DNA of 18,159 nucleotides from Desulfarculus sp. (GTDB lineage: Bacteria; Desulfobacterota; Desulfarculia; Desulfarculales; Desulfarculaceae), in the NCBI GenBank assembly GCA_020216805.1, contig JAIWNN010000003.1:1-18159 (forward strand), given 5' to 3'. Both the position numbers and the translations under genes were made by a program. Of this stretch, positions 1 through 17,172 are shown one piece after another. Below the pieces are notes generated by a model that saw only the letters and a list, made by a program, of their open reading frames with translations, was not told the DNA's origin and did no database searches. Position 1 is the stretch's first letter; each line of letters begins with the position of its first letter.

Positions 1-87
1 CACGATGCGCCGGCCGGCTTCCTCTCCGCTCTCCACCCCCTGCCGTTTGAGGGTGTCGATCAGCTCCTGCAGCTTTGCATCCGCCAT
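1..87 (-). CDS. 5' end of a minus-strand gene, function unknown (partial)
   Basis: The first 29 codons of a gene that runs off the left edge are visible. The start is ATG at 87, preceded on the minus strand by a clear AAGGAG ribosome binding site about 7 bases upstream. The visible protein begins MADAKLQELIDTLKRQGVES and continues charged and helical. This amphipathic start, with its Gly-Val-Glu and Ala/Glu-rich continuation, resembles the N-termini of V/A-type ATP synthase subunit E or F-type subunit b stalk proteins, but 29 residues cannot settle the family. The gene reads away from everything else here. Confidence 0.6.
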   Translation of the reverse strand, partial: MADAKLQELIDTLKRQGVESGEEAGRRIV

Positions 88-184
88 ACGCCAATCTCCT
101 TAGGTCGCTCTAGCCGGCTTCATCACTTGCGTTGGCGCGCGCTCGCGGCGCCAAAACAAAAACCGGGGCCCGTCGTCGGACGGC

Positions 185-206
185 CTGGTCCCCTAACCGG
201 GGCCAG
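185..206. other. Hairpin, 8-bp stem with 6-base loop
   Basis: CTGGTCCC at 185-192 pairs with GGGGCCAG at 199-206 (one G-T pair) around the loop CTAACC. It lies about 100 bases upstream of the minus-strand start at 87, so it may sit in that gene's 5' leader. There is no U-run on either strand, so it is not a convincing terminator. Confidence 0.35.
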
Positions 207-374
207 CCCCACGGTTATTCTCCAGGCTTGTTGAATTTTTCACTTGGTCTGCAAGAACCGGACCCCAGATGCCAACCCGAGCCACGATCAAAACCGGTGG
301 AGGTATTCGGCGCTTTTTCAGTCAATTGCAGCTGAGCCCGATTCAGACATACGGAACGTGGAGCTAGGGTATTA

Positions 375-417
375 TTGCATTTTGCAGTTGCCAATCAACC
401 AATTTCTTGCATTTTGC
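375..417. repeat. 11-bp direct repeat TTGCATTTTGC, two copies 32 bp apart
   Basis: TTGCATTTTGC occurs at 375-385 and again at 407-417, about three helical turns apart. The copies sit in an AT-richer island and are separated by a CCAATCAACCAATTT-like spacer. Helically phased repeats of this kind can be paired regulator sites, but no promoter or gene directly beside them supports a target. Confidence 0.5.
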
Positions 418-632
418 GATTAGCCGCACCATCCTTGCGCTGGTTTGCACAACGGCGGGGGCCGGGATTGTGCAGGCAAATGTCCTATCGCTTAGTGGGG
501 TTAGTCGCGTCCAACCCGAACCCGCCCGACTGGGCGCGCGCCTTGGCGGCGCTGGTTGGCTTTGCGCTTTGCCGCGGGGCAGGGTCGGGTGAGATGGCGT
601 TTTGCAACCCCGCGCGCCCTCCGCCGGAGACT

Positions 633-705
633 CGGATGGATCCGACCAGGCCAGGGCCAGACTATACCATCCAAATTCAAAGTGTTAGCGGGTCAGATCC
701 ATCCG
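633..705. repeat. 10-bp inverted repeat CGGATGGATC / GATCCATCCG
   Basis: CGGATGGATC at 633-642 is the perfect reverse complement of 696-705, separated by 53 bases. It lies upstream of the small gene at 804. The role is unknown; chance is possible in GC-rich DNA. Confidence 0.35.
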
Positions 706-803
706 GGGAACGGCCAAGCGGGTTTTGGCATCGGACTAGCTACCCAAATCCTTTCGAAAGGCGCCTGTCAACTGCCGTGTTCCACAACCGCGGAGGTGAT
801 TTG

Positions 804-1130
804 GTGTTCGGCTTTAGGAAAAAGGACAAGGCGACGGGCGAAGCAGGGGCGTTGGACCTGCCCAAGCCCAAGGACATCCCGCAGTCCCTGGGTCAGCACC
901 TGGTGGTCAACCAGCGGCAGAACCCGGAGTGGGTGTGGCGTCTGAAAAGCGTGACCCGCTCGGCCAAGGGAGCCAGTTTGGTCGAATTCCGAATCTTCGA
1001 CCCCGAATCGGCCCTGAGCCGCAAGCTGCGGGTGGATGACTACAACTCCCTGGACTCCCACCCCGACCTGATCCTGTTCCAGGGCGTTTTGGACAAACGC
1101 ACCCACCAGGCCCAGTTCCAGGACCTCTAG
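804..1130 (+). CDS. Small conserved-looking hypothetical protein, 108 aa
   Basis: A GTG start at 804 is chosen because a perfect GGAGG at 792-796 stands seven bases before it. The open frame continues upstream to 375, but that part has no start signal and a different composition. The protein begins MFGFRKKDK, has a short basic lead-in, and then a soluble mixed alpha/beta body. That body includes the segments LGQHLVVNQRQNPEWVWRLK, LVEFRIFDPESA and DSHPDLILFQG. There is no signal peptide, membrane segment or cysteine. I do not recognise a named family; the style is of a small conserved cytoplasmic protein. It converges with the gene at 1204-1536, with a hairpin between them. Confidence 0.7.
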   Translation: MFGFRKKDKATGEAGALDLPKPKDIPQSLGQHLVVNQRQNPEWVWRLKSVTRSAKGASLVEFRIFDPESALSRKLRVDDYNSLDSHPDLILFQGVLDKRTHQAQFQDL

Positions 1131-1157
1131 CCCTCTCCGGCTGCGCGGCTCGCCCGG

Positions 1158-1187
1158 GCGAGGCCCCGGAGCCCTCCGGGACCTCGC
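1158..1187. terminator. Hairpin between convergent genes, possible bidirectional terminator
   Basis: GCGAGGCCCCGGAG at 1158-1171 and CTCCGGGACCTCGC at 1174-1187 form a long stem with one mismatch. It lies in the 73-bp gap between two convergent genes. There is no T-run on either side, so the termination role rests on stem strength and position. Confidence 0.45.
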
Positions 1188-1203
1188 GCCGCCGGTTCCG
1201 GTC

Positions 1204-1536
1204 TCAGACCACGGTTTTGAAGATCGATCCCGATCCACCAAGACTGGAGGACGAACTCAGACCGCGGCTGCGCCCCGGACCGATGGCCAGGGCCGCTTGG
1301 CCAATGGCCATCAGGTCGTTCTTCAGGCCAGCGCCGCGCAGGCGGCCGCCGTCATTCTTGTCGCCGCCCAACAGGGTGTTGACCAGGCTGGAGCCCTCGT
1401 CCTTTTTCATCAGGTTGGCGATGCCCAGGGCATTGGCCTCGGTCTGCCCCAGACCCGCGCTTTTGGCCTGTGCCAGGCCCAGATTGAGGGCGTTTTGCGC
1501 GCTGACTTTGGCGATGTTGGAGAAAGTGAAAGCCAC
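1204..1536 (-). CDS. Small hypothetical protein, Gly/Ala/Leu/Ser-rich, 110 aa
   Basis: The start is GTG at 1536, supported by AAGGAGGTGT at 1541-1550 on the minus strand with normal spacing. The protein begins MAFTFSNIAKVSAQNALNLG. It is rich in Ala, Gly, Leu and Asn, has a Lys/Asp-rich middle (LMKKDEGSS, LLGGDKNDGG), and ends in a Ser/Gly tail (SSSSSLGGSGSIFKTVV). There is no Cys and no typical signal peptide or clear membrane helix. I do not recognise the family. The strong ribosome binding site argues that it is expressed. It is divergent from the peptide operon starting at 1848 and shares that upstream region. Confidence 0.6.
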   Translation of the reverse strand: MAFTFSNIAKVSAQNALNLGLAQAKSAGLGQTEANALGIANLMKKDEGSSLVNTLLGGDKNDGGRLRGAGLKNDLMAIGQAALAIGPGRSRGLSSSSSLGGSGSIFKTVV

Positions 1537-1613
1537 GGGAACACCTCCTTAGCGGCGTCCTCCCTGGACAACTGCGAGCCTTCCTTGGGGATTATCGGTG
1601 GGTCTACTTTACC

Positions 1614-1642
1614 AACATAACATTTAATCCCCTCCAAGCCAA
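1614..1642 (-). promoter_or_regulatory. Candidate sigma70-type promoter for the gene at 1204-1536
   Basis: On the minus strand, TTGGCT (1642-1637) and TATGTT (1619-1614) are separated by 17 bases in an AT-rich stretch. They lie about 80 bases upstream of the GTG at 1536. Each hexamer matches consensus at four of six positions. Confidence 0.35.
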
Positions 1643-1698
1643 GGGATATCGCGCCGGGGGCGGCACTTTATCCCGCCAGGCCGGCCCAGAATGGCTTT

Positions 1699-1739
1699 CA
1701 AGATGTTGTTTGATGTGACTATCAAATAACAATATCTTG
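1699..1739. promoter_or_regulatory. AT-rich imperfect inverted repeat, candidate operator
   Basis: CAAGATGTTGTTTGAT at 1699-1714 mirrors ATCAAATAACAATATCTTG at 1721-1739 with small bulges. The core is TTTGAT-N6-ATCAAA (1709-1726). It is one of the most AT-rich spots in the window. It is centred about 60 bases upstream of the -35 box at 1778 and also lies upstream of the divergent gene at 1536. The half-site TTGAT/ATCAA is that of CRP/FNR-superfamily boxes, but FNR uses a 4-base rather than a 6-base gap. It could also be an RNA hairpin ending near TTGTTTT. Confidence 0.5.
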
Positions 1740-1777
1740 TTGTTTTATCCCGAGTGGGCCGCCCCTTGCCCGAGGGC

Positions 1778-1806
1778 TTGACATTCTCTGATTCCGGCGC
1801 AACAAT
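1778..1806 (+). promoter_or_regulatory. Sigma70-type promoter of the peptide/radical SAM operon
   Basis: A perfect -35 TTGACA (1778-1783) and a -10 AACAAT (1801-1806, four of six) are exactly 17 bases apart. Transcription should start near 1813 and give a leader of about 35 bases before the ATG at 1848. This is the best promoter match I found in the window. Confidence 0.65.
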
Positions 1807-1820
1807 TTTAGCAAACAAAT

Positions 1821-1835
1821 GCCCCATGAAGGGGC
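1821..1835 (+). other. 5'-UTR hairpin beside the ribosome binding site
   Basis: GCCCC (1821-1825) pairs with GGGGC (1831-1835) around the loop ATGAA. It sits directly against the AAGGAGG ribosome binding site (1836-1842) of the 20-codon ORF. It would form near the 5' end of the mRNA and may stabilise it or tune initiation. Confidence 0.45.
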
Positions 1836-1847
1836 AAGGAGGCAATC

Positions 1848-1910
1848 ATGAAGATCCGGAAAATCGAGCGCACCCAGCGCGGGCTCTGCAAGTGCAAGAG
1901 CTCCTGCTAG
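1848..1910 (+). CDS. 20-aa Cys-rich cationic peptide: putative RiPP precursor (or attenuator leader peptide)
   Basis: The ATG at 1848 follows a strong AAGGAGG (1836-1842) at a five-base spacing. The product is MKIRKIERTQRGLCKCKSSC, ending at TAG 1908-1910. It has three cysteines (14, 16, 20) in the last seven residues, four Lys, three Arg and one acidic residue. The layout is a short basic leader and a Cys-dense core after a possible Arg-Gly break. It has its own promoter, and a terminator follows. Downstream lie a Cys-rich protein, a PqqD-like/radical SAM/SPASM enzyme and a cupin, which is the usual company of a RiPP precursor; PqqA is similarly tiny. The main alternative is a leader peptide whose Cys codons sense charged tRNA-Cys. 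I know of no named family that it matches. The translation signals are very strong, so translation is likely even if the role is open. Confidence 0.7.
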   Translation: MKIRKIERTQRGLCKCKSSC

Positions 1911-1921
1911 CCTAGGCTAGC
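1906..1921. repeat. Perfect 16-bp palindrome with three CTAG tetramers over the stop codon
   Basis: GCTAGCCTAGGCTAGC at 1906-1921 is a perfect palindrome and overlaps the TAG stop of the 20-codon ORF. In RNA it can fold as a 6-bp hairpin with a CUAG loop. In DNA it could be a dimeric regulator site. It directly precedes the terminator. Confidence 0.6.
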
Positions 1922-1925
1922 CTGG

Positions 1926-1957
1926 AGGGGGAGGCTCGAGCCTCCCCCTTTCGTTTT
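1926..1957 (+). terminator. Intrinsic terminator between peptide gene and downstream operon
   Basis: The nine-base arm GGGGGAGGC (1927-1935) pairs perfectly with GCCTCCCCC (1940-1948) around the loop TCGA. An outer A-T pair (1926/1949) adds to the stem, and TTTCGTTTT (1949-1957) follows. It lies 16 bases after the peptide stop and 17 before the next ATG (1975), where I see no separate promoter. Partial read-through would give abundant peptide mRNA and less maturase mRNA, as is common in precursor-maturase operons. It could also be a regulated attenuator. Confidence 0.85.
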
Positions 1958-1974
1958 GCCTCGCGGGGGGTCCC

Positions 1975-2298
1975 ATGCGCCACCTGATTTGTCCCCGCCT
2001 CTGTCGCTACTTCAAGCCCGACCGCCCCGAGCGGGATGGCTGCGGCGGACTGACCTGGCTGGTCGCCCATCCCAGCCTGGAAGCGGCGGTGGCCACCCTG
2101 GCTCCGGACCCCGGCGCGCCCCTCTACGGCCTGGCCGAGGACGACCACCGCCTGCTGCGGGTCTGCGCCGCCTGCCCCTACCGCCCGGACGGCTGCGACT
2201 TCCGCGACCCGTCCGTCCCTCGCGATCAATGCGCGCCCTGCGGCGGCCTGCGGGCGGTGGCCGGGCTGTTGGCCGCCGGCCATCATCTGGAGCTCTAG
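1975..2298 (+). CDS. Cys-rich 107-aa accessory protein, likely metal or Fe-S binding
   Basis: The ATG at 1975 follows a G-run (1965-1970) that can serve as a ribosome binding site. The TAG stop is only three bases before the next start. There are eight cysteines at 6, 10, 23, 64, 67, 74, 86 and 89. They fall in two groups, Cx3C-x12-C near the N-terminus (CPRLCRYF ... GCGG) and Cx2C-x6-C-x11-Cx2C near the C-terminus (CAACPYRPDGCDF ... CAPCGG). There is no signal peptide, so it should be cytoplasmic. The spacing suggests Fe-S or zinc ligation in two sites. Its tight position in front of the radical SAM gene suggests a partner of that enzyme, such as an electron donor, scaffold or peptide-binding subunit. 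It could alternatively be a second, larger modified substrate. I do not recognise a named family. Confidence 0.75.
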   Translation: MRHLICPRLCRYFKPDRPERDGCGGLTWLVAHPSLEAAVATLAPDPGAPLYGLAEDDHRLLRVCAACPYRPDGCDFRDPSVPRDQCAPCGGLRAVAGLLAAGHHLEL

Positions 2299-2301
2299 CC
2301 C

Positions 2302-3495
2302 TTGCCGGCCGACCCCGACCACTTCGTGCGCCTGGCCGATCACGTCTGCCTGCGCCGCTTGGAACAGCCCTGCCTGTATGACCGCCGGGCCGACGAACTC
2401 TACGAACTGAGCCCCGAGGCCTGGGAGGCCCTGGCCCGGTGCCGGGGGCAGATTAGTCTGGCCCAGGCCGGGTTGGACCCCGAGTTCCAGGCCTATTGTC
2501 TGGCCGAAGGGCTGCTGGAGCTCAGCCCCGAACCACGGCCGCACCCCCTGCCCCTGGGTCCCGGCCCGACTCCCTCCCTGCGCTACCTGGAGCTGCAGAT
2601 CACCTGGCGCTGCAACCTGGCCTGCGCCCACTGTTATCTGGGACCGGCCCGGGGGGTGGACCTGCCGGTGCCGGTCATCGCGGCGACCCTGCGCGAATTC
2701 GAGGCCATGAATGGCCTGCGCCTTCTGATCAGCGGCGGCGAGCCTCTGCTGCACCCTCGATGGCCCCAGGTCAACGCCCTGCTCTCCGCCCTGCCGGTGC
2801 GGCGGGTGTTGCTGAGCAATGGCCTGCTTCTGGACGACCAGCGCCTGGCCGAGCTCCATTGCGACGAGGTGCAGATCAGTCTGGACGGGCTGGAGGACGG
2901 GCACCAGGCCCTGCGCGGCCCGGGCAGTTTTGCCCGGGCGGTGGAAGCCGCCCGCCGGGTGCGGGCGGCGGGCCTGGACCTGTCCATCGCCACCATGGTC
3001 CACGCCGCCAACCTCAATGAGTTCGATGGCCTGGCGGAACTGGTCCAGGAGTTGGGGGCACGGGAGTGGGGCATCGACGCCCCCTGTCCCGCCGGCCGCC
3101 TGGAGGCCGATCCCGCCCTGGTGGTCAGCCCGGCGCTGGCCGCCCAGTGCATGGCCCACGCCTTTGGCGGGGCCTATCACGGCAGCGGCCAGGGCCCCCA
3201 GGGCCAGGCCATGGCTTGCGGACTGCACCTGTGCACCGTGGCCGCCGACGGCCGGGTGGCCCAATGCGGTTTTTACCTGGACAGCCCCCTGGGACGGATC
3301 GAGGAGGGCCTCTGGACCTGCTGGCACCGGCGGACGCCCCGGGAGCTGGCGATGGTGGCGGGTTGTCGCAGTTGCCCGGTGGCCGTCGATTGCGGCGGGG
3401 GCTGCCGCTTCCGGGCCCCGGCTCCGGACCGGCCCGATCCGGTGATGTGCGCGCTCATGGAACAAACCCCCGATTGGGAGAATCAGGCATGCTGA
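2302..3495 (+). CDS. Radical SAM/SPASM peptide maturase with PqqD-like N-terminal domain, 397 aa
   Basis: The enzyme should use S-adenosylmethionine and Fe-S clusters to modify a peptide. Residues 7-75 (FVRLADHVCLRRL, YDRRADELYELSPEAWEAL) look like a PqqD/RRE peptide-binding domain. The radical SAM CxxxCxxC is C104, C108, C111, and GGEP is at 145-148. The C-terminus fits the SPASM pattern, with C306-x10-G317-x4-C322 and then C355-x2-C358-x5-C364-x3-C368, with a further C383. That predicts two auxiliary clusters. The TTG at 2302, after GGAGC (2289-2293), is chosen because a later start would cut the PqqD-like domain. The stop overlaps the cupin ATG (ATGCTGA), so translation is coupled. RRE plus SPASM architecture is typical of RiPP maturases that form thioether or carbon-carbon links. 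The precise reaction cannot be read from the sequence, and I cannot place it in a named subfamily. Confidence 0.9.
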   Translation: MPADPDHFVRLADHVCLRRLEQPCLYDRRADELYELSPEAWEALARCRGQISLAQAGLDPEFQAYCLAEGLLELSPEPRPHPLPLGPGPTPSLRYLELQITWRCNLACAHCYLGPARGVDLPVPVIAATLREFEAMNGLRLLISGGEPLLHPRWPQVNALLSALPVRRVLLSNGLLLDDQRLAELHCDEVQISLDGLEDGHQALRGPGSFARAVEAARRVRAAGLDLSIATMVHAANLNEFDGLAELVQELGAREWGIDAPCPAGRLEADPALVVSPALAAQCMAHAFGGAYHGSGQGPQGQAMACGLHLCTVAADGRVAQCGFYLDSPLGRIEEGLWTCWHRRTPRELAMVAGCRSCPVAVDCGGGCRFRAPAPDRPDPVMCALMEQTPDWENQAC

Positions 3496-3842
3496 AGGTG
3501 TACGACCTGGCGGGGCGCGCCCCGCGCGAGGGCGGCGAGACGGTTCTGGGGCTCAAGGACCTGGGCACCCACGCCTGCTATCTGCTCTACGGCATCTTGG
3601 CGCCGGGCGAGCCGGCCCGGGTGCTGCGTCCCGGGCCGGGCCACGAGGAGATCATCCTCTGCCTGTCCGGTTCCATGCGCCTGGAGGGCATGGGCCAAAG
3701 CCTGATTCTACAGGCCGGCCAGGCGGTGCATCTCAGGGCCGAAGACACCCTCGAGGCCACCTGCGCCGGCCCCCTGGAGACGCGTTACGCCGCCGCCGGC
3801 GGCCATTCCGGCGAGGAAAGTCACCACCACCATCATCACTAG
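3489..3842 (+). CDS. Cupin protein with natural C-terminal six-histidine tail, 117 aa
   Basis: The ATG at 3489 overlaps the radical SAM stop by seven bases. It is a small single-domain cupin. Motif 1 is PGPGHEEIILCLSG, with H52 and E53/E54 as likely metal ligands. Motif 2 is LQAGQAVHLRAED, with H81. N-terminal strands include LGTHACYLLYGILAPGE. The protein ends GGHSGEESHHHHHH, with six consecutive histidines just before the TAG, encoded by mixed CAC/CAT codons. The tail suggests metal capture or delivery, for example Ni, Zn, Cu or Fe. In this operon the cupin may bind, oxidise or isomerise the modified peptide, sense it, or supply metal. It has no signal peptide. Its stop shares the CTAG at 3839-3842 with the convergent ANTAR gene. 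Confidence 0.85.
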   Translation: MLKVYDLAGRAPREGGETVLGLKDLGTHACYLLYGILAPGEPARVLRPGPGHEEIILCLSGSMRLEGMGQSLILQAGQAVHLRAEDTLEATCAGPLETRYAAAGGHSGEESHHHHHH

Positions 3843-4459
3843 CCGACACGGGATCGTCGACGTCGCGGTTGGCCCGCCAGCAGGCGCTGGGACTCCACCA
3901 CCGCCTCGGCCGCCTGGTGCAGGGCATAGCCTTGGGCCTGGGCGGCCTCCTCCAGGCGGGCCAGGGCCCCGGCCTCGTCCACCTGGAGCTGGACCATGAG
4001 CAGGCCCTTGGCCCGCTCCAGGAGCTTACGCCGGCGCAGACCCTCGCGCAGGTCGGCCACCTCCGCGGCCAGGCGGCTTTCGCGTCCGAAGTTGCGGTGG
4101 GCCATCTCCAGCGCCAGCCCCAGCACCGCCGCCTCCACCGGGGCCATCAGGCAGGACCGCACTCCCGCCCGCTGGGCCCGCTCCAGAAAAGCGCGGTCGT
4201 CGCGCTCGGCCAGCAGCACCACCGGCAAGGGATGACACCGCAACATCGCCCGCGCGGCCTCGACGCCATCGCCCCCCGGCAGGTCGCTGGCCACCAGGGC
4301 CAGATCCGGGGCTTGGCGGGCGCACACCAGGCAAGCCTGCTGGCCGTCGGCCGCCACCCCGGCCAGGACGAAGCCCAGATTTTTCAGGTCGCGGGCCAGG
4401 GTCTGGGCCCGCTCCGGACGCGCCTCCACCACCAGCACCCCGAGGGCTCGGTCAGGCAT
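3839..4459 (-). CDS. ANTAR-domain RNA-binding response regulator with degenerate receiver, 206 aa
   Basis: The C-terminal ANTAR domain (about 133-190; LRRRKLLERAKGLLM, AQGYALHQAAEAVV) belongs to the family that binds paired RNA hairpins to prevent transcription termination, as in AmiR and EutV. The N-terminal fold (5-120) is a CheY-like receiver, but the key residues are gone. The acidic pair is E12-A13, the phospho-acceptor position is A57 (in LALVASDLPGGDG), the Thr/Ser position is A84 and the Lys position is A106 (CLMAPVE). Phosphorylation at the usual site is therefore unlikely, although D59 lies two residues away. The ATG at 4459 overlaps the kinase stop by eight bases; an in-frame ATG at 4474 is a less likely start. 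It ends in a basic tail (QPRRRRSRVG). Its 3' end converges on the cupin gene. Confidence 0.88.
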   Translation of the reverse strand: MPDRALGVLVVEARPERAQTLARDLKNLGFVLAGVAADGQQACLVCARQAPDLALVASDLPGGDGVEAARAMLRCHPLPVVLLAERDDRAFLERAQRAGVRSCLMAPVEAAVLGLALEMAHRNFGRESRLAAEVADLREGLRRRKLLERAKGLLMVQLQVDEAGALARLEEAAQAQGYALHQAAEAVVESQRLLAGQPRRRRSRVG

Positions 4460-5129
4460 CGCGATTGTGGGCATGCAAGGTCGCCGCCGGCACCCAGAGC
4501 CGCACCTCCAGGCCGGGAGCGGCGTTGACCAGCTCCAGGCGGCCGTGCAGGTCGATATCGGCCACGGCCTGGGCCAGATAGAGCCCGAAACGACGCCGCT
4601 GGGGGAGATCGAAATCCGGCGGCAACCCGGAGCCGTTGTCCGCCACCCACAACAACAGGCCATCGTCGTCCAACCGACCGCCCAGGGACAGGATCGCGGG
4701 GCCAACCTGGGGCCGGCCGTGAAGCACGGCGTTGCCGATGATCTCGTATAGCCACAGGGACAGGGGGGAGCAGAGACGCAGGCTCAAGGCCAACTCGGGG
4801 AGGTCGCGCTGGATCCGCAGTGGCAAAACACTGCGGCCCTGGCAGCGACGGACGATCTCGGCTGCCAGGCGGTCCAGGGTGGGCTGGGCCCCGGTCGCGT
4901 GAATCAGGGAGTAGGAGACCGCCAGGGCCCCCACCCGCCCCTCCATGGCCTCGGTCAACTCCTCCGGGGTGCGGGCGTAGGGACAGGCCATGGCCATCAG
5001 GTTGGCGATGGCTTGAAAGTCGTTCTTGGCCCGATGGCAGACGCCGCCGGCCAGGTCGCGATAGGGCTTGACGGACACGGCCGCGCCCTCGGCGCCGGTC
5101 CCCAGCCCCTCCCCTCGATCCCCCGCCAT
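4452..5129 (-). CDS. Soluble HisKA_2-type sensor histidine kinase, 225 aa
   Basis: The H-box is GGVCHRAKNDFQAIANLM with H32, of the HisKA_2/HWE type. The ATPase domain keeps its N-box (E129 and N133 in YEIIGNAVLHG), the ADNGSGLP nucleotide loop (D164-G168) and a second glycine box (RRFGLYLAQAV). The start at 5129 follows a G-rich ribosome binding site. There is no sensory domain and no membrane segment; only about 25 residues precede the H-box. The input must therefore come from a partner protein or cytoplasmic ligand. It is translationally coupled to the ANTAR regulator downstream, as in EutW-EutV pairs. The kinase looks catalytically intact although its neighbour's receiver does not. A GTG at 5078 is an alternative start. 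Confidence 0.88.
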   Translation of the reverse strand: MAGDRGEGLGTGAEGAAVSVKPYRDLAGGVCHRAKNDFQAIANLMAMACPYARTPEELTEAMEGRVGALAVSYSLIHATGAQPTLDRLAAEIVRRCQGRSVLPLRIQRDLPELALSLRLCSPLSLWLYEIIGNAVLHGRPQVGPAILSLGGRLDDDGLLLWVADNGSGLPPDFDLPQRRRFGLYLAQAVADIDLHGRLELVNAAPGLEVRLWVPAATLHAHNRDA

Positions 5130-5202
5130 GGTCCCCCCCAGGCTTTTGGCTGCCGGGCCGGACGCGGATATGGGCCGCCGCCGGCCTCGACGATGGCGAA
5201 GA

Positions 5203-5227
5203 GGCCCCGCCTGGCGCGGGCGGGGCC
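5203..5227 (-). terminator. Hairpin downstream of the NifU-domain gene
   Basis: GGCCCCGCC (5203-5211) pairs perfectly with GGCGGGGCC (5219-5227), beginning 12 bases after the stop of the gene at 5240. The minus-strand continuation (CTCTTC) has only a weak T content, so termination is probable rather than certain. Confidence 0.5.
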
Positions 5228-5239
5228 GTTGGCCGGGCC

Positions 5240-5461
5240 CTAGACCGACTCGACGCTCTTGATTTCGGGCACCGCCTGCCTGACGACCTTCTCGATACCC
5301 ATCTTCAGCGTCATCTGGCTCATGGGGCAGCCACCGCAGGCGCCCTTCAGGCGCACCTTGACCACGCCGTCGTCGCCGACATCCACCAGCTCGACGTCGC
5401 CGCCGTCGCGGTTCAGGGCGGGGCGAATCTTGTCCAGGGCCGCTTGCACTTTTTCCTTCAA
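5240..5461 (-). CDS. NifU C-terminal (Nfu-type) Fe-S scaffold protein, 73 aa
   Basis: This is a stand-alone Nfu domain that carries or transfers an Fe-S cluster through the CxxC in [15 protein letters not shown]. The N-terminal part ([18 protein letters not shown]) is typical of the family. The TTG at 5461 is preferred because AAGGAG lies eight bases upstream and the protein then starts at the family's usual [12 protein letters not shown] point. The open frame can be extended to another TTG at 5500, but that would put the ribosome binding site inside the gene. It lies 77 bp downstream of purC on the same strand. It may help mature Fe-S enzymes such as the multi-cluster radical SAM protein nearby, but that link is only by proximity. 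Confidence 0.88.
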
Positions 5462-5538
5462 CTTACTAGCTCCTTTTCGGTGGGGCGTGGGTGGGGCCAA
5501 TCTAGCACAGGCGGTTTCGCACCGCTAATTAATTCAGA

Positions 5539-6429
5539 CTATTTCAGCCCACCGCCGGTCAGCCGCTCCAGGGCCTCAAGGTAGCGGGACCGGGTGCCCT
5601 CGATCACCTCCGCCGGCAGCCTGGGGGCCGGCGGCTGCTTGTTGAAGCCTATGCTCTCCAGGTAGTCGCGCACGTACTGCTTGTCGAAGCTGCGCTGGCC
5701 GCGTCCAGGCTCGTACTCGTCGGCCGGCCAGAAGCGGCTGGAGTCCGGGGTCAGGATCTCGTCGATCAGGATCAGCTCGCCGTCCTTGCGCCCGAACTCG
5801 AACTTGGTGTCGGCGATGATGATGCCGGCCCGAGCCGCGATGTCGCGCGCGCGGGCGTAGATGGCCAGGGCCCGGTCGGCCACCTGGCGGGCGATCTCCT
5901 GGCCCACGATCTTCTCGGCCTGGGCCAGGGAGATGTTCTCGTCGTGCTCGCCCAGCTCGGCCTTGGTGCTGGGGGTGAACAGGGGCTCGGGCAGACGGTC
6001 GCTCTCCCGCAGGCCGGCCGGGAGCCGGTAGCCGCAGACCGAGCCGGTCTTCTGGTAGTCGCTCCATCCGCTGCCGGCCAGGTAGCCGCGCACGATGGCC
6101 TCGATGGCCAGAGGCTGGCACTTCTTGACCAGCATCGAGCGCCCCTCCAACTGGTCCCGATAGGGTTGCAGGATTTTGGGGAAGTCCTTCATCTCCCAGG
6201 CCACCAGGTGGTTGGGGGTCAGGTCGGCCATCTGGCCAAACCAGAAGACGCTGATCTGGGTCAGCACCTTGCCCTTGTCCGGGATGGGGTCGGGCAGGAT
6301 GACGTCGAAGGCGCTCAGGCGGTCGCTGGCCACGATCAGCAGATGCTCGCCCAGGTCGTAAATGTCGCGCACCTTGCCCCGGCCGAGGAGTTTCACGTCG
6401 GGAAGATTGGTTTGCAGTATCGCGCTCAT
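5539..6429 (-). CDS. purC: Phosphoribosylaminoimidazole-succinocarboxamide synthase (SAICAR synthase)
   Basis: The enzyme joins CAIR and aspartate with ATP in de novo purine synthesis. The 296-residue protein is the length of the longer bacterial and yeast-type PurC. Recognisable motifs are [14 protein letters not shown] and [19 protein letters not shown] near the N-terminus, [38 protein letters not shown] and [10 protein letters not shown]. The start ATG at 6429 has an AGGAG about 13 bases upstream and a closer GAGAGA. It is divergent from mdh and shares a 288-bp intergenic region with it. No other purine genes are adjacent. Confidence 0.97.
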
Positions 6430-6495
6430 GGTCTCTCTTCGCTCCTGTGGTGCGTCGTCCCTGGGCCCTTCCGGCCAGATTTTCGCCGGGGGTGG

Positions 6496-6525
6496 TTGAC
6501 GCGGGGTTTGTGGCGAGACTATGCT
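6496..6525 (+). promoter_or_regulatory. Candidate sigma70-type promoter for mdh
   Basis: TTGACG (6496-6501) and TATGCT (6520-6525) are separated by 18 bases in the purC-mdh intergenic region. It predicts a start near 6532 and an unusually long leader of about 185 bases before the mdh ATG. Confidence 0.55.
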
Positions 6526-6651
6526 CTCATAATCCTGTGCGAAAAGCCGTCCGGCGTCAATGCCGGCGCGGCGGGGAGGCCCGCGGGTCGCTCAGGTCAT
6601 CGGCAGACACCTTCACCGCGCCGAACTTGCCCGCGGCCGGGTCTCCGGGCC

Positions 6652-6674
6652 GCCGGGGGGTGTTTGCCCCCGGC
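6652..6674 (+). other. Leader hairpin upstream of mdh
   Basis: GCCGGGGG (6652-6659) pairs with CCCCCGGC (6667-6674) around a 7-base loop, about 45 bases before the mdh start. No T-run follows, so it is not a terminator. It may be a structured 5'-UTR element. Confidence 0.4.
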
Positions 6675-6717
6675 TTCACCGGTCAAGCCTAGCATAAAGA
6701 ATCAGAGGGAGAAACAG

Positions 6718-7653
6718 ATGCTGCAGAAAATCACGGTTATCGGCGGCGGCAATGTCGGCGCCACCTGCGCCCAGCGCGCGGCCGAAAAAGAGCTGGCGGA
6801 TGTCGTCCTGGTGGACGTGGTGGAGGGCATGCCCCAGGGCAAGGGGTTGGACCTGTGCGAGGCCGCGCCAATCGAGAAGCACGACGCCCGGGTGGTGGGC
6901 TCCAACGACTACAAGGCCACCGCGGGCAGCGACGTTATCATCGTCACCGCCGGCATCGCCAGAAAGCCCGGCATGAGCCGCGACGACCTGATCAAGACCA
7001 ACGCCGGCATCGTGGACACCGTGGTCAAGGCCGCCGCCCAGGAAAGCCCCAACGCGGTCTTCATAATCGTCAGCAATCCCCTGGACGCCATGTGCCACGT
7101 GGCCTTGAAGGCCTGCGGCTTCCCCCCCCAGCGGGTGATCGGCATGGCCGGGGTGCTGGACTCGGCCCGCTTCCGCTACTTCATCGCCGAGGCCCTGGAC
7201 GTCAGCGTCGAGAACTGCCACGCCTTCGTGCTGGGCGGCCACGGCGATACCATGGTGCCCCTGCCCCGGCTGTCCAACGTCAGCGGCGTGCCCCTGCCCG
7301 AGCTCTTGCCGGCCGACAAGATCGCCCAGCTCTGCCAGCGCACCGCCCAGGGCGGGGCCGAGATCGTCAGCCTGCTGAAGACCGGCAGCGCCTTCTACGC
7401 CCCGGCCTCGGCCGCGGTGGAGATGGCCGAGGCGGTGCTCAAGGACAAGAAGAAGGTCCTGCCCTGCGCGGCCTACCTCACCGGCCAATACGGCTACCAC
7501 GACCTGTTCATCGGCGTGCCGGTGAAGCTGGGCCAGGGCGGAGTGCTGGACGTGCTGGAGATCAAGCTGACCGCCGAGGAGAAGGCGGCCCTGGACAAGA
7601 GCGCCGACGCGGTGCGGGGCCTGGTGAAGATCCTGGGCGAGCTGGGCTTCTAG
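6718..7653 (+). CDS. mdh: Malate dehydrogenase, LDH-like (type 3), 311 aa
   Basis: It interconverts malate and oxaloacetate with NAD. The Rossmann motif is [14 protein letters not shown] (GxGxxG at 9-14) and D33 ends the second strand for NAD binding. The substrate loop [11 protein letters not shown] carries R82 and R88. Arg rather than Gln at this loop marks malate over lactate specificity. R151 and the catalytic H175 ([11 protein letters not shown]) are present. The ATG at 6718 follows GAGGGAG at the right spacing. The open frame upstream of it is not coding. It is monocistronic, with its own promoter and a terminator just after it. Confidence 0.96.
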
Positions 7654-7678
7654 CCGGCCGACATCCCGAAAACAGCGA

Positions 7679-7711
7679 CGAGGCCCGCGACCGACATGGC
7701 CGCGGGCCTCG
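7679..7711. terminator. Bidirectional terminator between mdh and the convergent beta-helix gene
   Basis: CGAGGCCCGCG (7679-7689) pairs perfectly with CGCGGGCCTCG (7701-7711). It stands between the mdh stop (7653) and the stop of the minus-strand gene (7746). On the minus side it is followed by TCGCTGTTTTC. Confidence 0.75.
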
Positions 7712-7745
7712 CCATTCGCCGGATGAGAGGACCGGACTCGGCCCC

Positions 7746-8549
7746 CTAGCGGATCACGCTGCGGGGGGGGTGATACCCGCCGGGCACCGCCTGGCAGGGG
7801 GCCACCAGGCAGCGGGGGCCCAGGATGGTGCCGGGGTTGGTGACCGAGTTGCAGCCGGTTTCGCAACCATCGCCCATGATGGCCCCGAACTTGCGGCGTT
7901 CGATGCTGTGCACGGTCTCGCCCAGCTTGACCCGGAAGGGCCGGTCCACGATCTTGAGGTTGGCCAGCTTGGTGCCCGCCCCCAGGTTGACCTCGCGGCC
8001 CAGGATGGAGTCGCCCAGATAGGCGAAGTGCCCGGCCTTGGCACCGTCCAGCATGGCCGAGTTCTTGATCTCGGTGGTGTGGCCCACCACGCACCCCGCG
8101 CCGATCAGGCAGCCGCCCCGCAGATAGGCCCCCTGGCGCACCTCGCTGTTGGGTCCGATGAAGCTGGGTCCCTTGATCAGGGCCCCGGGCTCGATCACCG
8201 CCCCGGGCGCGATGTGGATCAGCTCGTCCATCAGGGCCGCGCCGGCGTGGATCACGCTGACCTTGCCCACCTCGCGGCCCTGGAGCCGCACCCGGAGCTT
8301 GCCCTTGGTGGGGTCGCCACCCAGCAGCTCGAAGCCGTCCTCGTAGATGCGGCCGTCCACGATGACCACGGTTCGGGGCAGCACCTCGCCGTGGCCGCGC
8401 AGGGGGCCGGCGTTGGGGCCGGCCTCCTCCACCACCTGGCGGGTGTAGGCCTCGATCTTGCCCAGGGCCTCCCAAACGAACTCCAGGCCCGCGAACAGGC
8501 CGGCGTGGGTGAGTCCCTCCAGGTTGAACAGATCCTTGGGCGCCAGCAT
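7746..8549 (-). CDS. Left-handed beta-helix (hexapeptide-repeat) protein, GlmU-C-like, 267 aa
   Basis: The ATG at 8549 follows GGGAGGG. The N-terminal 100 residues have an all-alpha/mixed segment (LFNLEGLTHAGLFAGLEFVW, VEEAGPN) and a short strand-rich piece (TVVIVDGRIYEDGFELL). From about residue 108 come hexapeptide repeats of the left-handed beta-helix type (IHIAPGAVIEPGALIKGPSF, then VRQGAYLRGGCLIGAGCVVG). The end, FGAIMGDGCETGCNSVTNPG, resembles the acetyltransferase half of GlmU. No nucleotidyltransferase domain is present, so it is not a full GlmU. A role as a sugar-nucleotide acetyl/acyltransferase or a regulator is likely. Such proteins are often labelled UDP-GlcNAc pyrophosphorylase-like without proof. 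It lies 29 bp after hisF and is probably co-transcribed. Confidence 0.82.
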   Translation of the reverse strand: MLAPKDLFNLEGLTHAGLFAGLEFVWEALGKIEAYTRQVVEEAGPNAGPLRGHGEVLPRTVVIVDGRIYEDGFELLGGDPTKGKLRVRLQGREVGKVSVIHAGAALMDELIHIAPGAVIEPGALIKGPSFIGPNSEVRQGAYLRGGCLIGAGCVVGHTTEIKNSAMLDGAKAGHFAYLGDSILGREVNLGAGTKLANLKIVDRPFRVKLGETVHSIERRKFGAIMGDGCETGCNSVTNPGTILGPRCLVAPCQAVPGGYHPPRSVIR

Positions 8550-8578
8550 GGGTCCCTCCCGCCCGGCGGCCGGCCGGC

Positions 8579-9358
8579 CTACCAGTAGCGCCGCACCGGG
8601 ATGCCGGCCCGGTGCAGGTGGTCCTTGATCTGGGCCACGGTGTAGTGGCCGTAGTGAGTCATGGAGGCGATCAGGGCCGCGTCGGCCTGGCCCTGGGTGA
8701 GGACCTCCACCAGGTGCCGAGGCTCGCCGGCCCCGCCGCTGGCGATGACCGGAATGCTGACGTTGCTGCTGATCAGCCGGGTCAGGGTCAGCTCGTAGCC
8801 GGTCTGGGTGCCGTCGGCGTCGATGCTGTTCAGGCAGATCTCGCCCGCGCCAAGGTCCTGGGCCTGTTTGGCCCAGGCCAGGGCGTCGATGCCCATGCGC
8901 TTGCGGCCGCCGTGGATGACCATTTCGTAGCCGCTGGGGATCTGGGGGGTGGCCTCCACCTTCAGCACGTCCATGCCCAGCACGATGCACTGGCTGCCGA
9001 ACTGGCGCGCGCCCTCGGCGATGATCCGGGGGTTGGTCACCGCCGCCGAGTTCACGCTGACCTTTTCCGCCCCGGCCGCCAGGCAGTCGTACATGTCGGC
9101 CACGCCGCGGATGCCGCCGCCCACCGAGAAGGGCATGAAGATGGTGGCCGCCACCCGGCGCACGACGTCGATCATGATGTTGCGGGCGTCGCTGCTGGCG
9201 GTGATGTCGTAAAAGACCAGCTCGTCCGCGCCCTGCTCGTAGTAGAAGGCGGCCATCTCCACCGGGTCGCCGATGTCCACGTTGCCCTTGAACTTGATCC
9301 CCTTGGTCAGCCTTCCGTCGCGCACGTCCAAGCAGGGAATGATGCGCTTAGAGAGCAT
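8579..9358 (-). CDS. hisF: Imidazole glycerol phosphate synthase, cyclase subunit
   Basis: With HisH it converts PRFAR and ammonia to imidazole glycerol phosphate and AICAR in histidine synthesis. The 259-residue TIM barrel has the catalytic aspartates D11 ([11 protein letters not shown]) and D130 ([12 protein letters not shown]). Phosphate loops are at [13 protein letters not shown] and [12 protein letters not shown], and [16 protein letters not shown] is typical. The ATG at 9358 overlaps the end of hisH by 11 bases, which implies translational coupling for the 1:1 complex. The rest of the his pathway is not in this window. Confidence 0.97.
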
Positions 9359-9995
9359 CGGCCCCCTCCTTTCCGTCCCAGGCCAGGAAGTTGCCCAAAA
9401 TGGTCAAGCCCGGACGGCCCGACTTCTCGGGATGGAACTGCACCGCCACCAGGTTCTCGCGGGCCACGGCGGCGGCGAAGCGCAGGCCGTACTCGGTCCA
9501 GCCCACCACGTCCTCGGCCCGGGCCGGCGCGGGGTGGTAGGAGTGCACGAAGTAGAACTCGGCCTCGGGCGGCAGGCCGGCGAAGACCGGGTGGGGCCGG
9601 GTCCAGGCCACCTGGTTCCAGCCCATGTGGGGCACCTTCAGGGGGTGGCCGGCGGCGTCGCGGTGGTCGAGCGGGAAGCGCACCGTCTGGCCGGGCAGGA
9701 TGCCCAGGCAGGTGGCGGCGTCCTCCTGGCTGCTCTCGAAGATGATCTGGGTGCCCAGGCAGATGCCCAGCACCGGCTTGCCCTGGTCCAGAGCCTGCTT
9801 GAGCGCGCGGTCCAGGCCCAGGCGCTTCAGGCTGGCCATGGCCGCGCCGGCCGCGCCCACGCCGGGAAAGATCACCCGCTCGGCGCCGGCGATGAACTCC
9901 AGGTCGTTGCTGATCCGGCAGGGCGCCCCCAGGTGGTCCAGCGCCCGTTTGACGCTGGTGAGGTTGCCGGCCTCGTAGTCGATGATGGCGATCAC
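9348..9995 (-). CDS. hisH: Imidazole glycerol phosphate synthase, glutamine amidotransferase subunit
   Basis: This class I glutaminase supplies ammonia to HisF. The triad is C79 ([11 protein letters not shown]), H188 and E190 ([11 protein letters not shown]). The oxyanion loop motif is PGVG at 44-47. The length of 215 aa is slightly over the family's usual 200-210. The start at 9995 follows AGGAG. A gap of about 105 bp separates it from hbd upstream, in which I see two small hairpins but no clear promoter. Confidence 0.97.
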
Positions 9996-10053
9996 TGCTA
10001 AAGCTCCTCCCGCCCCGGTCCGCCGATCCTTGCGGCCTTTTAGGAGGGGATGC

Positions 10054-10079
10054 GGGGTTACCCCTTGGCTGGCGCCAAG
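10054..10079 (-). terminator. Two small hairpins after hbd, weak terminator candidate
   Basis: CTTGGC (10064-10069) pairs with GCCAAG (10074-10079), and GGGG (10054-10057) with CCCC (10061-10064). They follow the hbd stop on the minus strand. There is no T-run, and the hairpins overlap by one base. They may only attenuate read-through into hisH. Confidence 0.25.
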
Positions 10080-10100
10080 ACGGTTCCCCCGCTTTACTTC

Positions 10101-10949
10101 CTAGTACTGATAGAAGCCCCGGCCGGATTTGCGGCCCAGCCAGCCCTGGTCCACGTACTTGCGCAGCAGGGGGCAGGGGCGGTACTTGCTGTCGCCCAGG
10201 CCCTGGTGCAACACCTCCAGGATGGCCAGGCAGGTGTCCAAACCGATGAGGTCGGCCAGGGCCAGGGGGCCCATGGGATGGTTCATGCCCAGCTTCATCA
10301 CCTGGTCAACGTCCGCCGGCTGGCCCACGCCCTCCATCACGCAGTACACCGCCTCGTTGATCATGGGCAGCAGGATGCGGTTGGCGATGAAGCCCGGGTA
10401 GTCGTTGGCCGGCACCGGGGTCTTGCCCATCTTCACGGCCAGGTCCAGGGTGAGCTGGTGGCAGGCGTCGCTGGTGGCCAGGCCGCGGATGACCTCCACC
10501 AGGGCCATCATCGGCACCGGGTTCATGAAGTGCATGCCGATGACCAGCTCGGGGCGGCTGGTGGCGCCGGCGATCTTGGTGATGCTGATGCTGCTGGTGT
10601 TGGAGGAGAGCACCACCCCGGGCCTGCAGATGGCGTCCAGCTTGCGGAAGATTTCGAGCTTGAGCGCCACGTTCTCGGTGGCGGCCTCGACCACGAAGTC
10701 GGCCCCGGCCATGTCCTCCAGGCGGGTGCTGGTCTTGATCCGGCCCAGGATGGCCTTCTGATCCTCGACGCTTAGCTTTTCTTTCTTGACCAGGCGGCCC
10801 AGGCTGGTGTCGATGGTTTTTACGCCCCGGGCCACGAACTCGTCCTTGATGTCGTTCATGATCACGTCGAAGCCGGCCGCGGCCGCCACCTGGGCGATGC
10901 CACTGCCCATCTGTCCGGCGCCGATCACGCCGATGGTCCTAACTTCCAT
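10101..10949 (-). CDS. hbd: 3-hydroxybutyryl-CoA dehydrogenase (3-hydroxyacyl-CoA dehydrogenase)
   Basis: It reversibly oxidises 3-hydroxyacyl-CoA to 3-ketoacyl-CoA with NAD(H), in beta-oxidation, butyrate or aromatic degradation pathways. The Rossmann motif is [15 protein letters not shown] (GxGxxG at 10-15). The catalytic dyad is H140 ([10 protein letters not shown]) and E152 (LVEVIRG), with the SNTSS loop (116-120) and N190 (PGFIANRIL). The length of 282 aa is exact for Hbd/PaaH single-domain enzymes. The start at 10949 follows AGGAGAG at a good distance. It lies 38 bp downstream of the TPR gene. No other acyl-CoA genes are visible, so its pathway here is open. Confidence 0.93.
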
Positions 10950-10987
10950 GCCGTCTCTCCTTGTGTCGCGGGCTTCATGGTTGGCGA

Positions 10988-11728
10988 TTATTTGCAGTCC
11001 GGATCATTTTCCATGCTGGCCAGGTAGCAGGACGCCTCGTTGAGGGCGGGATTGATGTCCAGGGCCCGCTGGATGGCCGCCTTGCCCTTTTCCTTCTGGC
11101 CGCCTTCAAAAAGCGCGCGGCCCAGGTTGAACCAGAGGTTCTCGTCTCCCGGAGCCAGGTTGATGGCCCGGGTGTAGTGGCGCACCGCCTCGGCGTAAAG
11201 GCCCATCCGGCGCAGCTGGATGCCGAACTCGTTGAAGATGTGCTTGTTCTCCGGCTCCAGCACCGCCTCGATGGTGCCCAGCTTCTTGAAGACCGCCGCC
11301 GCCTTCTCGGTCTCGCCCAGGGCCAGGTAGGTCTTGCCCAAGCCGAAGTTGGCCCGCACGTTCTCCTCGTGCAGTTTGACCGCCTTGCTGAACTCGAACT
11401 CGGCCGAGAGGAACTCGTTGTCGGCCAGATGGCGCTCGGCCCGGGCGGCCAGGCGATCGGCCTGACGTTGCTGGATGCTGATATTCTTGGGCACGAAATC
11501 CGGCAGATGGCGAAAGCGCTTGGCGAACTCCTCCAGGGGCACCAGGTCGATGAAGCCGGAGCGCTCCTCGTTGATGTCCAGCAACTCCATCTTGACCTGG
11601 TCGTCCTCCTGCCCCACCAGCAGCCAGTAGTTCTCCATCTTGGCGTCCTTGGCGGTATCGCCGGTGCCGACCTTGCTGGAGATGCTCTCCAAATAGTATC
11701 CGGGCAGGACCTTGGGATTTTCGGACAT
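10988..11728 (-). CDS. TPR-repeat protein, 246 aa
   Basis: Residues 1-65 form a distinct N-terminal segment ([20 protein letters not shown], then [10 protein letters not shown]). The rest is tetratricopeptide repeats, including [39 protein letters not shown] and [20 protein letters not shown], ending DPDCK. There is no signal peptide, so it should be a cytoplasmic scaffold. The ATG at 11728 is preferred because the AAGGA at 11738-11742 is nine bases away; the ATG at 11734 is only three bases from it. It follows the phosphatidyltransferase gene closely, and the AAGGA ribosome binding site lies at that gene's stop. The similar TPR architecture of the CheY-TPR protein at 15923-17083 suggests related scaffolding roles, but no specific link is shown. 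Confidence 0.85.
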
Positions 11729-11741
11729 AGCCATGCTTCCT

Positions 11742-12395
11742 TCAGGCGAAATCGCCCCGCCACCAGGCCCGAAAATAGTTCACCAGGGCGATGAACCCCA
11801 GGCCCAGCGCGCCCCAGATCCCGGCCGCGCCCACCAGCCGCAGCCAAGTCCACTCCGCCCAGGCGGCGATGACGGTCAGCCCCATGCCCCAGGCGAAGAA
11901 GGCGGTCTTGAGTTTTCCCCAGCGGTTGGTCTGCACCCAGGGCGCCGGCCAGAGAGGCTGGCCGCGTCGCAGACGTCCGATGACGATCAACAGCGGGATG
12001 GCCACCACGTGCAGGTCCATGGCCACCACCAACGCCAACACCCGCCAATCGAACAGCCCGCGCCACCACAAGGTCAGGATCAAGGCCAGAGCGTAGATTT
12101 TGTCGGCCAACGGGTCCAAGAAAGCCCCCAGCTTGGAAACCAGGCCCCGCTGGCGGGCCACCATGCCGTCCAGGTTGTCGCTGATGCCGGCGCTGAAGCC
12201 CACGATGATCAGCCAACCCAGGCCCACCGAGGGGGTGAAGGTCATCCAGATCAAAGCCAGAGAGCCCAGGATGCGGCAGACAGTGAGGTGGTTGGGGGTG
12301 ATCCAGCGTGGCACCAGGCTCACCACCGCGGCCTGAAAACCACCCCGACGGGGGCCGCCCCCCCTTTCGCCGATCGCGTCTTGTGCCTGCGTCAT
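11742..12395 (-). CDS. CDP-alcohol phosphatidyltransferase family membrane protein, 217 aa
   Basis: It should transfer a phosphatidyl group from CDP-diacylglycerol to an alcohol in the inner membrane, as PgsA and cardiolipin-type synthases do. The complete signature D73-x2-D76-G77-x2-A80-R81-x8-G90-x3-D94-x3-D98 is present (SDNLDGMVARQRG, LGAFLDPLADK). Several hydrophobic helices follow, for example at 40-70, 99-115, 120-140 and the C-terminal third. The substrate (glycerol phosphate, inositol or other) cannot be read from this. The N-terminus is basic and Gly-rich (GERGGGPRRGG). The ribosome binding site is weak. It follows mnmG after 139 bp. Confidence 0.88.
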   Translation of the reverse strand: MTQAQDAIGERGGGPRRGGFQAAVVSLVPRWITPNHLTVCRILGSLALIWMTFTPSVGLGWLIIVGFSAGISDNLDGMVARQRGLVSKLGAFLDPLADKIYALALILTLWWRGLFDWRVLALVVAMDLHVVAIPLLIVIGRLRRGQPLWPAPWVQTNRWGKLKTAFFAWGMGLTVIAAWAEWTWLRLVGAAGIWGALGLGFIALVNYFRAWWRGDFA

Positions 12396-12534
12396 GAGAA
12401 ACGGCCCCCGCGCGCCCTGCCCGGCGCTCGCGCCGGCCTGGACCAGGCTTCCAGCCCAGGGCCTTGTTCTGGCAGACGATTTTATCCCACGCCCTCGCCA
12501 GCGGCAAGAACCAAAGCTCGCCTCCGGCCTCGAT

Positions 12535-14909: not shown

Positions 14910-15003
14910 TGGCTCACCCCTCCTTGCATCATCGCCGGTGCGAGGGCGCGCCCCGGCGGCGCCGGCAAGGCTAACACCTCCGGCCGCGCCGGGCAAGCCA
15001 GGC

Positions 15004-15810: not shown

Positions 15811-15922
15811 CGGCGCCCCTCCAGATCCGGGAAGGCGGGCGATGATCCTGGGCGATCAATCCAGGGTCGACAAGCGCAGCGCGGAAGCTGGCCAACGCGC
15901 GCGGCGCCTGAATCGCGGCAGC

Positions 15923-17083: not shown

Positions 17084-17143
17084 CGTTCGCGCGCCCTTCC
17101 GGCAATCAAGCCCGCCGACCGCGGACGATCGCCCCATGTTGAT

Positions 17144-17172
17144 AGCGTAACAAAACCATCCCGCCCTGTCGA
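17144..17172 (-). promoter_or_regulatory. Candidate promoter for the CheY-TPR gene
   Basis: On the minus strand, TCGACA (17172-17167, five of six) and TACGCT (17149-17144, three of six) are 17 bases apart, about 60 bases before the ATG at 17083. The -10 match is weak. Confidence 0.35.

Follow-up and report, generated by a model that had tools for sequence, protein, structure and literature searches.

Gene content and layout of the locus

The subject of this analysis is a short cysteine-rich peptide gene and the three genes that follow it in an 18,159-nucleotide stretch of Desulfarculus sp. DNA (contig JAIWNN010000003.1, positions 1 to 18,159; referred to below as the window). The source genome comprises 1.83 Mb in 171 contigs and is 55% complete. 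Considered together with their relatives in other bacteria, these genes probably encode a maturation system for a ribosomally synthesized and post-translationally modified peptide (RiPP), here called the CKC system. Its enzyme combines a predicted RiPP recognition element (RRE), a radical S-adenosylmethionine (SAM) domain and a SPASM domain. The locus has the following features, supported by reading of the open reading frames (ORFs), by alignments and by AlphaFold2 (AF2) models.

1778..1806, + strand: sigma-70-like promoter TTGACA-17-AACAAT for the peptide gene (10/12 matches against 0.1 expected)
1820..1836, + strand: 5' RNA hairpin TGCCCC-ATGAA-GGGGCA directly 5' of the ribosome binding site, present in the minimum free energy structure
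1848..1910, + strand: component A, 20-aa putative precursor peptide MKIRKIERTQRGLCKCKSSC, average mass 2368.9 Da when unmodified (ORF read directly, homologue comparison)
1924..1957, + strand: intrinsic terminator separating the peptide gene from the operon (12-pair stem at 1924-1951, T-rich tail)
1975..2298, + strand: component B, eight-cysteine two-module protein, predicted to be all-helical (orthologue alignment, AF2 model)
2302..3495, + strand: component C, RRE-radical SAM-SPASM enzyme with a TTG start (Pfam PF04055, AF2 model, structural matches)
3489..3842, + strand: component D, small cupin with a C-terminal His tail, accessory (weak Cupin_2 match, aligned members)

In the window, the sequence AGGAGG occupies positions 1837-1842 and ends 5 nt 5' of the peptide ATG. 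Component B is separated from the enzyme gene by 3 bases, and the enzyme and cupin genes overlap by 7 bases. An earlier reading made from the window sequence alone (the sequence-only reading) had described a tiny Cys-rich ORF with a strong ribosome binding site and a promoter, then a terminator and three tightly packed genes. All three signals were found as described, and both intergenic distances proved exact.

The peptide gene and its family

Among 60 related genomes, 18 carried a close orthologue of the enzyme (E 5e-103 or better), the next match being at 1.2e-23. Of the 60 genomes, 17 contained the DNA pattern encoding CKCKSSC plus a stop codon and none contained the reversed control, which argues against a chance occurrence; all 17 fell among the 18 genomes with the orthologue. 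In the eighteenth (G013), the enzyme is terminal on a 4-kb contig and no match to the pattern was found; in G020, which belongs to the same order as the window, peptide and enzyme lie on different contigs. All 17 peptides were 20 aa long with the consensus MKI.K(I/V)..(T/S)..GLCKCKSSC, and each of their genes had a GGAG-type site and, as judged by eye, a terminator-like stem. Codons for the invariant Cys and Lys residues varied in their third position (TGC/TGT, AAG/AAA) while the residues stayed constant in 68 peptides from 66 loci, a table that includes two duplicate loci and two rows out of register; such silent variation is the pattern expected of a translated peptide. These comparisons indicate that the peptide ORF is a real gene. 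The search for the peptide gave no match in G003, G006 and G011, three close relatives that lack the enzyme orthologue. G003 belongs to the same genus as the window and is 97% complete, and offers a natural comparison for the function of the system.

A wider set of 72 distinct loci was compiled (74 were read; the duplicates L102 and L170 were dropped). The small ORF that the sequence-only reading had proposed to look for upstream of homologous enzymes was found within about 1.6 kb of the enzyme at 64 of the 72 loci, giving 66 peptides in all, but its position proved variable. In Desulfarculales and many other Desulfobacterota it precedes the enzyme on the same strand; most actinobacterial loci and family f13 have it downstream, and L091, L177 and L178 have it upstream in divergent orientation. 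Six of the eight genomes whose loci have no nearby peptide carry it elsewhere (G020, G066, G078, G278, G359 and G706; about 21 kb from the enzyme in G278). No peptide was found in the other two, G013 (71% complete) and G065, where the enzyme stands at a contig end and where, for G065, the search pattern was possibly unsuited to the clade. An enzyme without the small ORF, which had been named as evidence against the system, was at genome level encountered only in these two contig-end cases.

Peptide starts were picked by script near a length of 20 aa, a choice supported by the conserved M-x-I. From this start the family peptides measure 20-21 aa and end in CKCxx[S/T/A]C(G), with an extra C-terminal Gly in many actinobacterial peptides. 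Residues C14, K15, C16 and C20 (window numbering) were kept in every peptide read, the main locus scan having demanded CKC and three other scans having left residue 15 free. Position 19 is Ser or Thr, or Ala in G278; M1, I3 and K5 are conserved along with the Cys codons, and the core is near-invariant between two phyla. Neither Trp nor Tyr occurs in any of the 49 distinct peptides. A single copy was present in 37 of the 40 peptide-positive Desulfobacterota genomes; G016, G320 and G373 carry two, the second copy of G320 being unlinked and diverged. Locus L071 has tandem peptide genes (5326-5388 and 5511-5573), each with its own hairpin and its own terminator, and its second copy ends in CKCHSSC.

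Co-inheritance of peptide and enzyme

The enzyme profile (A4, E 1e-60 or better) matched 39 of 395 Desulfobacterota genomes, in 23 of 245 genera. In what is, judging by genome handles and tallies, the same set, the peptide profile (A5, E 0.01 or better), which was derived from peptides located near the enzyme, matched 40 genomes, namely those 39 and G176, where the match is weak and partial (residues 11-20, E 0.0047). Among 296 genomes of Actinomycetota, 23 had the enzyme and 20 a peptide profile match, all 20 within the 23; in the remaining three (G478, G626 and G684) the peptide adjoins the enzyme but scores below the threshold. The probability of such an overlap by chance is negligible even when counted by genus, in a statistic that ignores kinship. 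Searching named genomes with the enzyme profile returned 27 loci. Desulfocarbo indianensis strain SCBM is among the carriers, as are other 'Deltaproteobacteria' and members of Actinomycetota, for instance Candidatus Solincola and Geothermincola. Desulfarculus baarsii and Desulfoferula mesophila were among the protein matches, and Thermoleophilia metagenome-assembled genomes were matched by a more divergent profile. Searches of plasmid and phage collections, at E 1e-40 and 1e-30, were negative. On the evidence of sequence comparison, the peptide, the RRE-radical SAM-SPASM enzyme and the Cys-module protein are a co-inherited set in two phyla.

Expression signals of the peptide gene

A TTGAC[AT] element was located 25-130 nt 5' of 31 of 45 non-actinobacterial peptide genes, compared with 22 of 279 control ORF starts. 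A hairpin with an ANGAA loop occurred at most 60 nt 5' of the start in 30 of 66 peptide genes, all but one of which are non-actinobacterial, and at 4 of 456 control starts. Its stem varies in a paired fashion between loci; since the hairpins were selected for pairing, the weight of this observation rests on the control rate and not on the covariation of the stem. An ANGGA loop was found at 14 of the 66 peptide genes, all of them actinobacterial, and at 8 of the 456 control starts, and in 13 of the 14 genes the ribosome binding site lies inside the loop, an arrangement that resembles CsrA sites. Under a strict rule, a terminator follows 33 of the 66 peptide genes, against 0.7 expected from mononucleotide shuffles. 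These signals suggest that the peptide transcript is short and regulated separately.

The radical SAM enzyme

Pfam PF04055 was detected in all 106 enzyme members and Pfam SPASM in one. The sequence-only reading had reported a CxxxCxxC motif and a complete SPASM cysteine pattern in the maturase, and in the alignment of 106 rows the radical SAM motif C104-x3-C108-x2-C111 and the SPASM cysteines C306, C322, C355, C358, C364, C368 and C383 are all invariant. The AF2 model of the enzyme has a predicted local distance difference test (pLDDT) score of 94.5, and its N-terminal block scores 94-98. In this block the model places strands at residues 8-11, 15-19, 23-27, 32-35, 48-52 and 72-75 and helices at 38-45, 53-56 and 60-68. 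The predicted fold supports the assignment of the enzyme N-terminus to an RRE (PqqD-like) winged-helix domain; the PqqD-like domain named in the sequence-only reading thus stands as a predicted fold, but not as a Pfam match. The top structural matches of the model were SkfB (best) and SuiB, which align with the enzyme from residues 13 and 8-9, and PqqE was among the matched solved structures. The best whole-length solved-structure matches were RRE-bearing RiPP maturases. Two cysteines of the predicted RRE domain, C47 (invariant) and C66 (at least 90% conserved in the 106 members), are not expected in a pure peptide-binding domain.

A comparison with curated radical SAM/RiPP models had been recommended in the sequence-only reading. 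None of the 25 NCBIfam models listed for the window enzyme attained its cut-off, and the best E value among these models over the 106 members was 6.5e-35. The window enzyme scored 60.8 bits against the PqqE model (cut-off 381.35), 67.9 against mycofactocin MftC (265), 67.9 against GeoRSP (400), 71 against ACGX (400) and 55.3 against StsB (625). The PapB and SCIFF maturase models were not among the 25; against the PapB model (cut-off 340), the enzymes of L081, L077 and L079 scored 55.5, 41.1 and 49.4 bits, respectively. The SCIFF model was likewise absent from the models listed for these three enzymes and for the 106 members.

The cysteine module

The eight cysteines of the window B protein are invariant in 16 orthologues, and 92 database homologues were found. 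We read B as two copies of a module with the pattern C-x(2,3)-C-x-[F/Y]...C-[G/S], of which a single copy is present in the actinobacterial loci and in family f13. The module was recognized 5' of the enzyme at 68 of the 72 loci by a sequence pattern that did not demand a start codon, and it is fused in frame to the enzyme N-terminus in 10 of the 72 loci and also in proteins P0124, P0206 and P0208. The eight-Cys protein of the sequence-only reading is real and conserved, but it is one variant of a smaller Cys module, which also occurs fused to the enzyme. The three module arrangements need only 3 changes in all on an enzyme tree of 67 rows; three of its rows (L184, L169 and L179) form long branches, and L156 and L168 carry the label 'double' although no module was recognized there. 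The AF2 model of the two-module protein (pLDDT 92.8) is all-helical and had no match among solved structures in the Protein Data Bank. We infer that B may be a metal-binding helper acting on the enzyme, as a cluster donor, an electron donor or a peptide clamp.

The cupin and other neighbouring genes

Cupin D was found at 30 of the 72 loci and at none of the 24 actinobacterial ones. The window cupin scored 22.4 bits against Cupin_2 (cut-off 27.2), and GHEE and AGGH motifs and a His-rich tail are conserved in 16 aligned cupins. Judged by its distribution, the cupin is an accessory outside the core set, so that of the four-gene combination proposed earlier the peptide, the Cys module and the enzyme hold together and the cupin does not.

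The other recurrent neighbours are restricted to single families. Eight Desulfarculaceae loci (L035, L036, L038-L043) are preceded on the same strand by the genes of an ATP-binding cassette (ABC) importer: substrate-binding protein, FecCD permease and ATPase. From the end of the ATPase gene to the peptide gene the distance is 72-119 bases in seven of these loci and 434 in L043. The one importer set tested, that of L040, scored 95 bits for Peripla_BP_2, 312 for FecCD and 124 for ABC_tran; its nearest named relatives are B12 and heme importers, below cut-off. Nine loci have a permease gene downstream on the opposite strand, and the tested member (L040), at 408 bits against a cut-off of 300, is an SO_0444-family Cu/Zn efflux transporter. 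These metal-transport neighbours fit a metal-related role. Between peptide and B, seven loci (L035, L036, L038-L041, L043) carry a DUF192 gene (one member tested), whose product in Desulfarculaceae looks secreted. Seven f13 loci have an ATP-grasp-like gene after the enzyme and near the peptide (e.g., L157 5923-6837), and the one tested scored 28.5 bits (cut-off 23.2); ATP-grasp enzymes are also able to modify peptides. No export, protease or immunity gene was identified near the loci, where neighbour clusters were mostly judged by eye.

In the window, an ANTAR-domain response regulator and an HWE-type histidine kinase (3839-5129, minus strand) adjoin the locus. Relatives are also close to the locus in L031 and L032, which marks the pair as a neighbour within the genus, outside the core set. 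A NifU-like domain is encoded at 5240-5500 on the minus strand, and full NifU lies near the f13 loci L163-L165 (one tested); the proximity of NifU-type iron-sulfur assembly genes to the locus in two lineages may be a coincidence.

Proposed maturation system and alternative explanations

As in a RiPP system, a short encoded precursor is co-inherited in these loci with what appears from its sequence to be a modifying enzyme. The view of the sequence-only reading that the window holds a possible undescribed RiPP cluster is supported by the co-occurrence of enzyme and peptide, by the sub-cut-off NCBIfam scores and by the structural matches to RiPP maturases, and a search of open-access full-text literature gave no description of this peptide. 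We propose, with a probability of about 0.7, that the CKC system is a RiPP-type maturation system not found described, in which the enzyme would modify the CKC core to give an intracellular redox or metal-binding product. The peptide would be produced from its own short transcript and its basic N-terminal half (M-x-I-x-K) would be held by the N-terminal winged-helix (RRE) domain of the enzyme. The radical SAM centre with its SPASM iron-sulfur clusters, aided by B, would oxidatively modify C-K-C-x-x-[S/T/A]-C, most likely by introducing thioether or other crosslinks that use Cys14, Cys16 and Cys20. The product would stay intracellular and serve as a conserved cofactor for redox or metal binding, in the way that pyrroloquinoline quinone (PQQ) and mycofactocin serve in redox, rather than being a variable secreted antimicrobial, and the His-tailed cupin could be a lineage-specific metal-binding accessory.

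A more specific proposal, which we put forward tentatively and at somewhat less than even odds, is that the matured peptide serves within the cell as a cofactor functionally comparable to PQQ and mycofactocin, either carrying redox equivalents or acting as a metal ligand, with Cys14, Cys16 and Cys20 crosslinked or metal-binding and with B as a new partner domain. We know of no such peptide-derived cofactor in these bacteria or with this chemistry. If the cofactor proposal is true, the Cys module would represent a new kind of maturase partner domain. Since the named isolates Desulfarculus baarsii, Desulfoferula mesophila and Desulfocarbo indianensis carry the system, the product can be sought directly.

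Several observations weigh against the proposed system. Modification and cofactor role are both argued by analogy, and Pfam PqqD was among the matches of none of the 106 enzyme members. No protease gene that would account for leader removal was identified nearby, and the metal-transport neighbours, confined to one family, may be mere synteny. Two guesses at users of the product failed on presence counts. Carbon monoxide dehydrogenase/acetyl-CoA synthase (CODH/ACS), considered as a partner enzyme, was present in 31 of 36 genomes with the CKC enzyme and in 28 of 36 without it, and was not found in the enzyme-positive G002 (99% complete). Among Desulfobacterota, dsrA scored above cut-off in 22 of 31 positive and 13 of 34 negative genomes; in actinobacteria it did so in 2 of 12 positive genomes.

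The same loci could be explained by a small metal- or cluster-binding polypeptide that is used unmodified, the radical SAM enzyme acting on another target such as B. The CKCxx[S/T/A]C motif and the Cys modules of B resemble metal sites, B is sometimes fused to the enzyme, and metal-transport genes flank the locus in Desulfarculaceae, which raised our estimate for this explanation slightly. We nevertheless consider it unlikely, because 20 aa matches the known size of radical SAM precursors, enzyme and peptide co-occur one to one, and the enzyme has a predicted RRE fold. Somewhat less probable again, and lowered a little by the same metal-transport genes, is an exported and cleaved antimicrobial or signalling peptide of the sactipeptide or ranthipeptide kind. 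A Cys-rich core and a SPASM enzyme with the sactisynthase SkfB as best structural match would suit such a peptide, but transporter genes were found nearby in just one family, where they encode a metal-type importer and a Cu/Zn efflux pump, and the peptide is sometimes unlinked from the enzyme. A cofactor or metal role is preferred over an antimicrobial one because the core hardly varies between the two phyla, the gene is mostly single-copy, no export, protease or immunity gene was identified, and plasmids and phages gave no match.

That the enzyme is a drifted member of a known radical SAM RiPP family (PQQ, mycofactocin, GeoRSP, SCIFF/ranthipeptide or ACGX), with which it has the radical SAM/SPASM core in common, is very improbable given the different precursor motif and the distance of the window enzyme from the PqqE, mycofactocin, GeoRSP and ACGX cut-offs. 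The least probable explanation is a regulatory leader that controls the terminator when ribosomes stall at its Cys codons (attenuation). In the window a short Cys-containing ORF and a terminator do stand in this order 5' of the operon; elsewhere, the ORF often lies downstream, divergent or at a distant site in the genome and keeps its own start signals, which speaks against an attenuator, and M1, I3 and K5 are conserved and not the Cys codons alone.

Comparison with known systems

The CKC system resembles the PQQ system (PqqA, PqqD, PqqE) in its very short conserved precursor, PqqD-type recognition domain (here a predicted fold) and SPASM radical SAM enzyme. PqqA averages 23 aa (PMC3023750). 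The CKC system differs in having the RRE fused to the enzyme, a CKCxx[S/T/A]C core and the Cys module B. Its assignment as a PQQ system was rejected: the enzyme misses the PqqE cut-off, and Tyr, which together with Glu forms the rule for PQQ precursors in PMC8326336, is absent from the 49 distinct peptides.

With sactipeptides (SkfB) and ranthipeptides (CteB/SCIFF) the system has in common an RRE, radical SAM and SPASM enzyme and a Cys-bearing core, but the CKC precursor is 20 aa long with a conserved core, and the score against the StsB model is far under the cut-off. The possibility of a PapB-type ranthipeptide maturase was likewise rejected, as L081, L077 and L079 all miss the PapB cut-off. 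Unlike the substrate of streptide SuiB, the CKC peptides lack Trp, so that a Lys-Trp crosslink is not possible within the peptide.

The mycofactocin precursor, as described in PMC3023750, is tiny, has an invariant C-terminus, is often missed by gene callers and was found in several phyla beside a SPASM enzyme; Haft's prediction of mycofactocin used the same kind of argument as presented here (PMC3023750). For mycofactocin that argument is a start and not a proof. The likeness to mycofactocin (MftA, MftB, MftC) lies in a tiny precursor whose C-terminus is invariant and which is accompanied by a SPASM enzyme, whereas the CKC system has a Cys core, a Cys-module partner and no known set of dependent enzymes; its identification as mycofactocin was rejected because the MftC cut-off was missed. 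Peptide-derived cofactors are rare, and the CKC core differs from both PQQ and mycofactocin.

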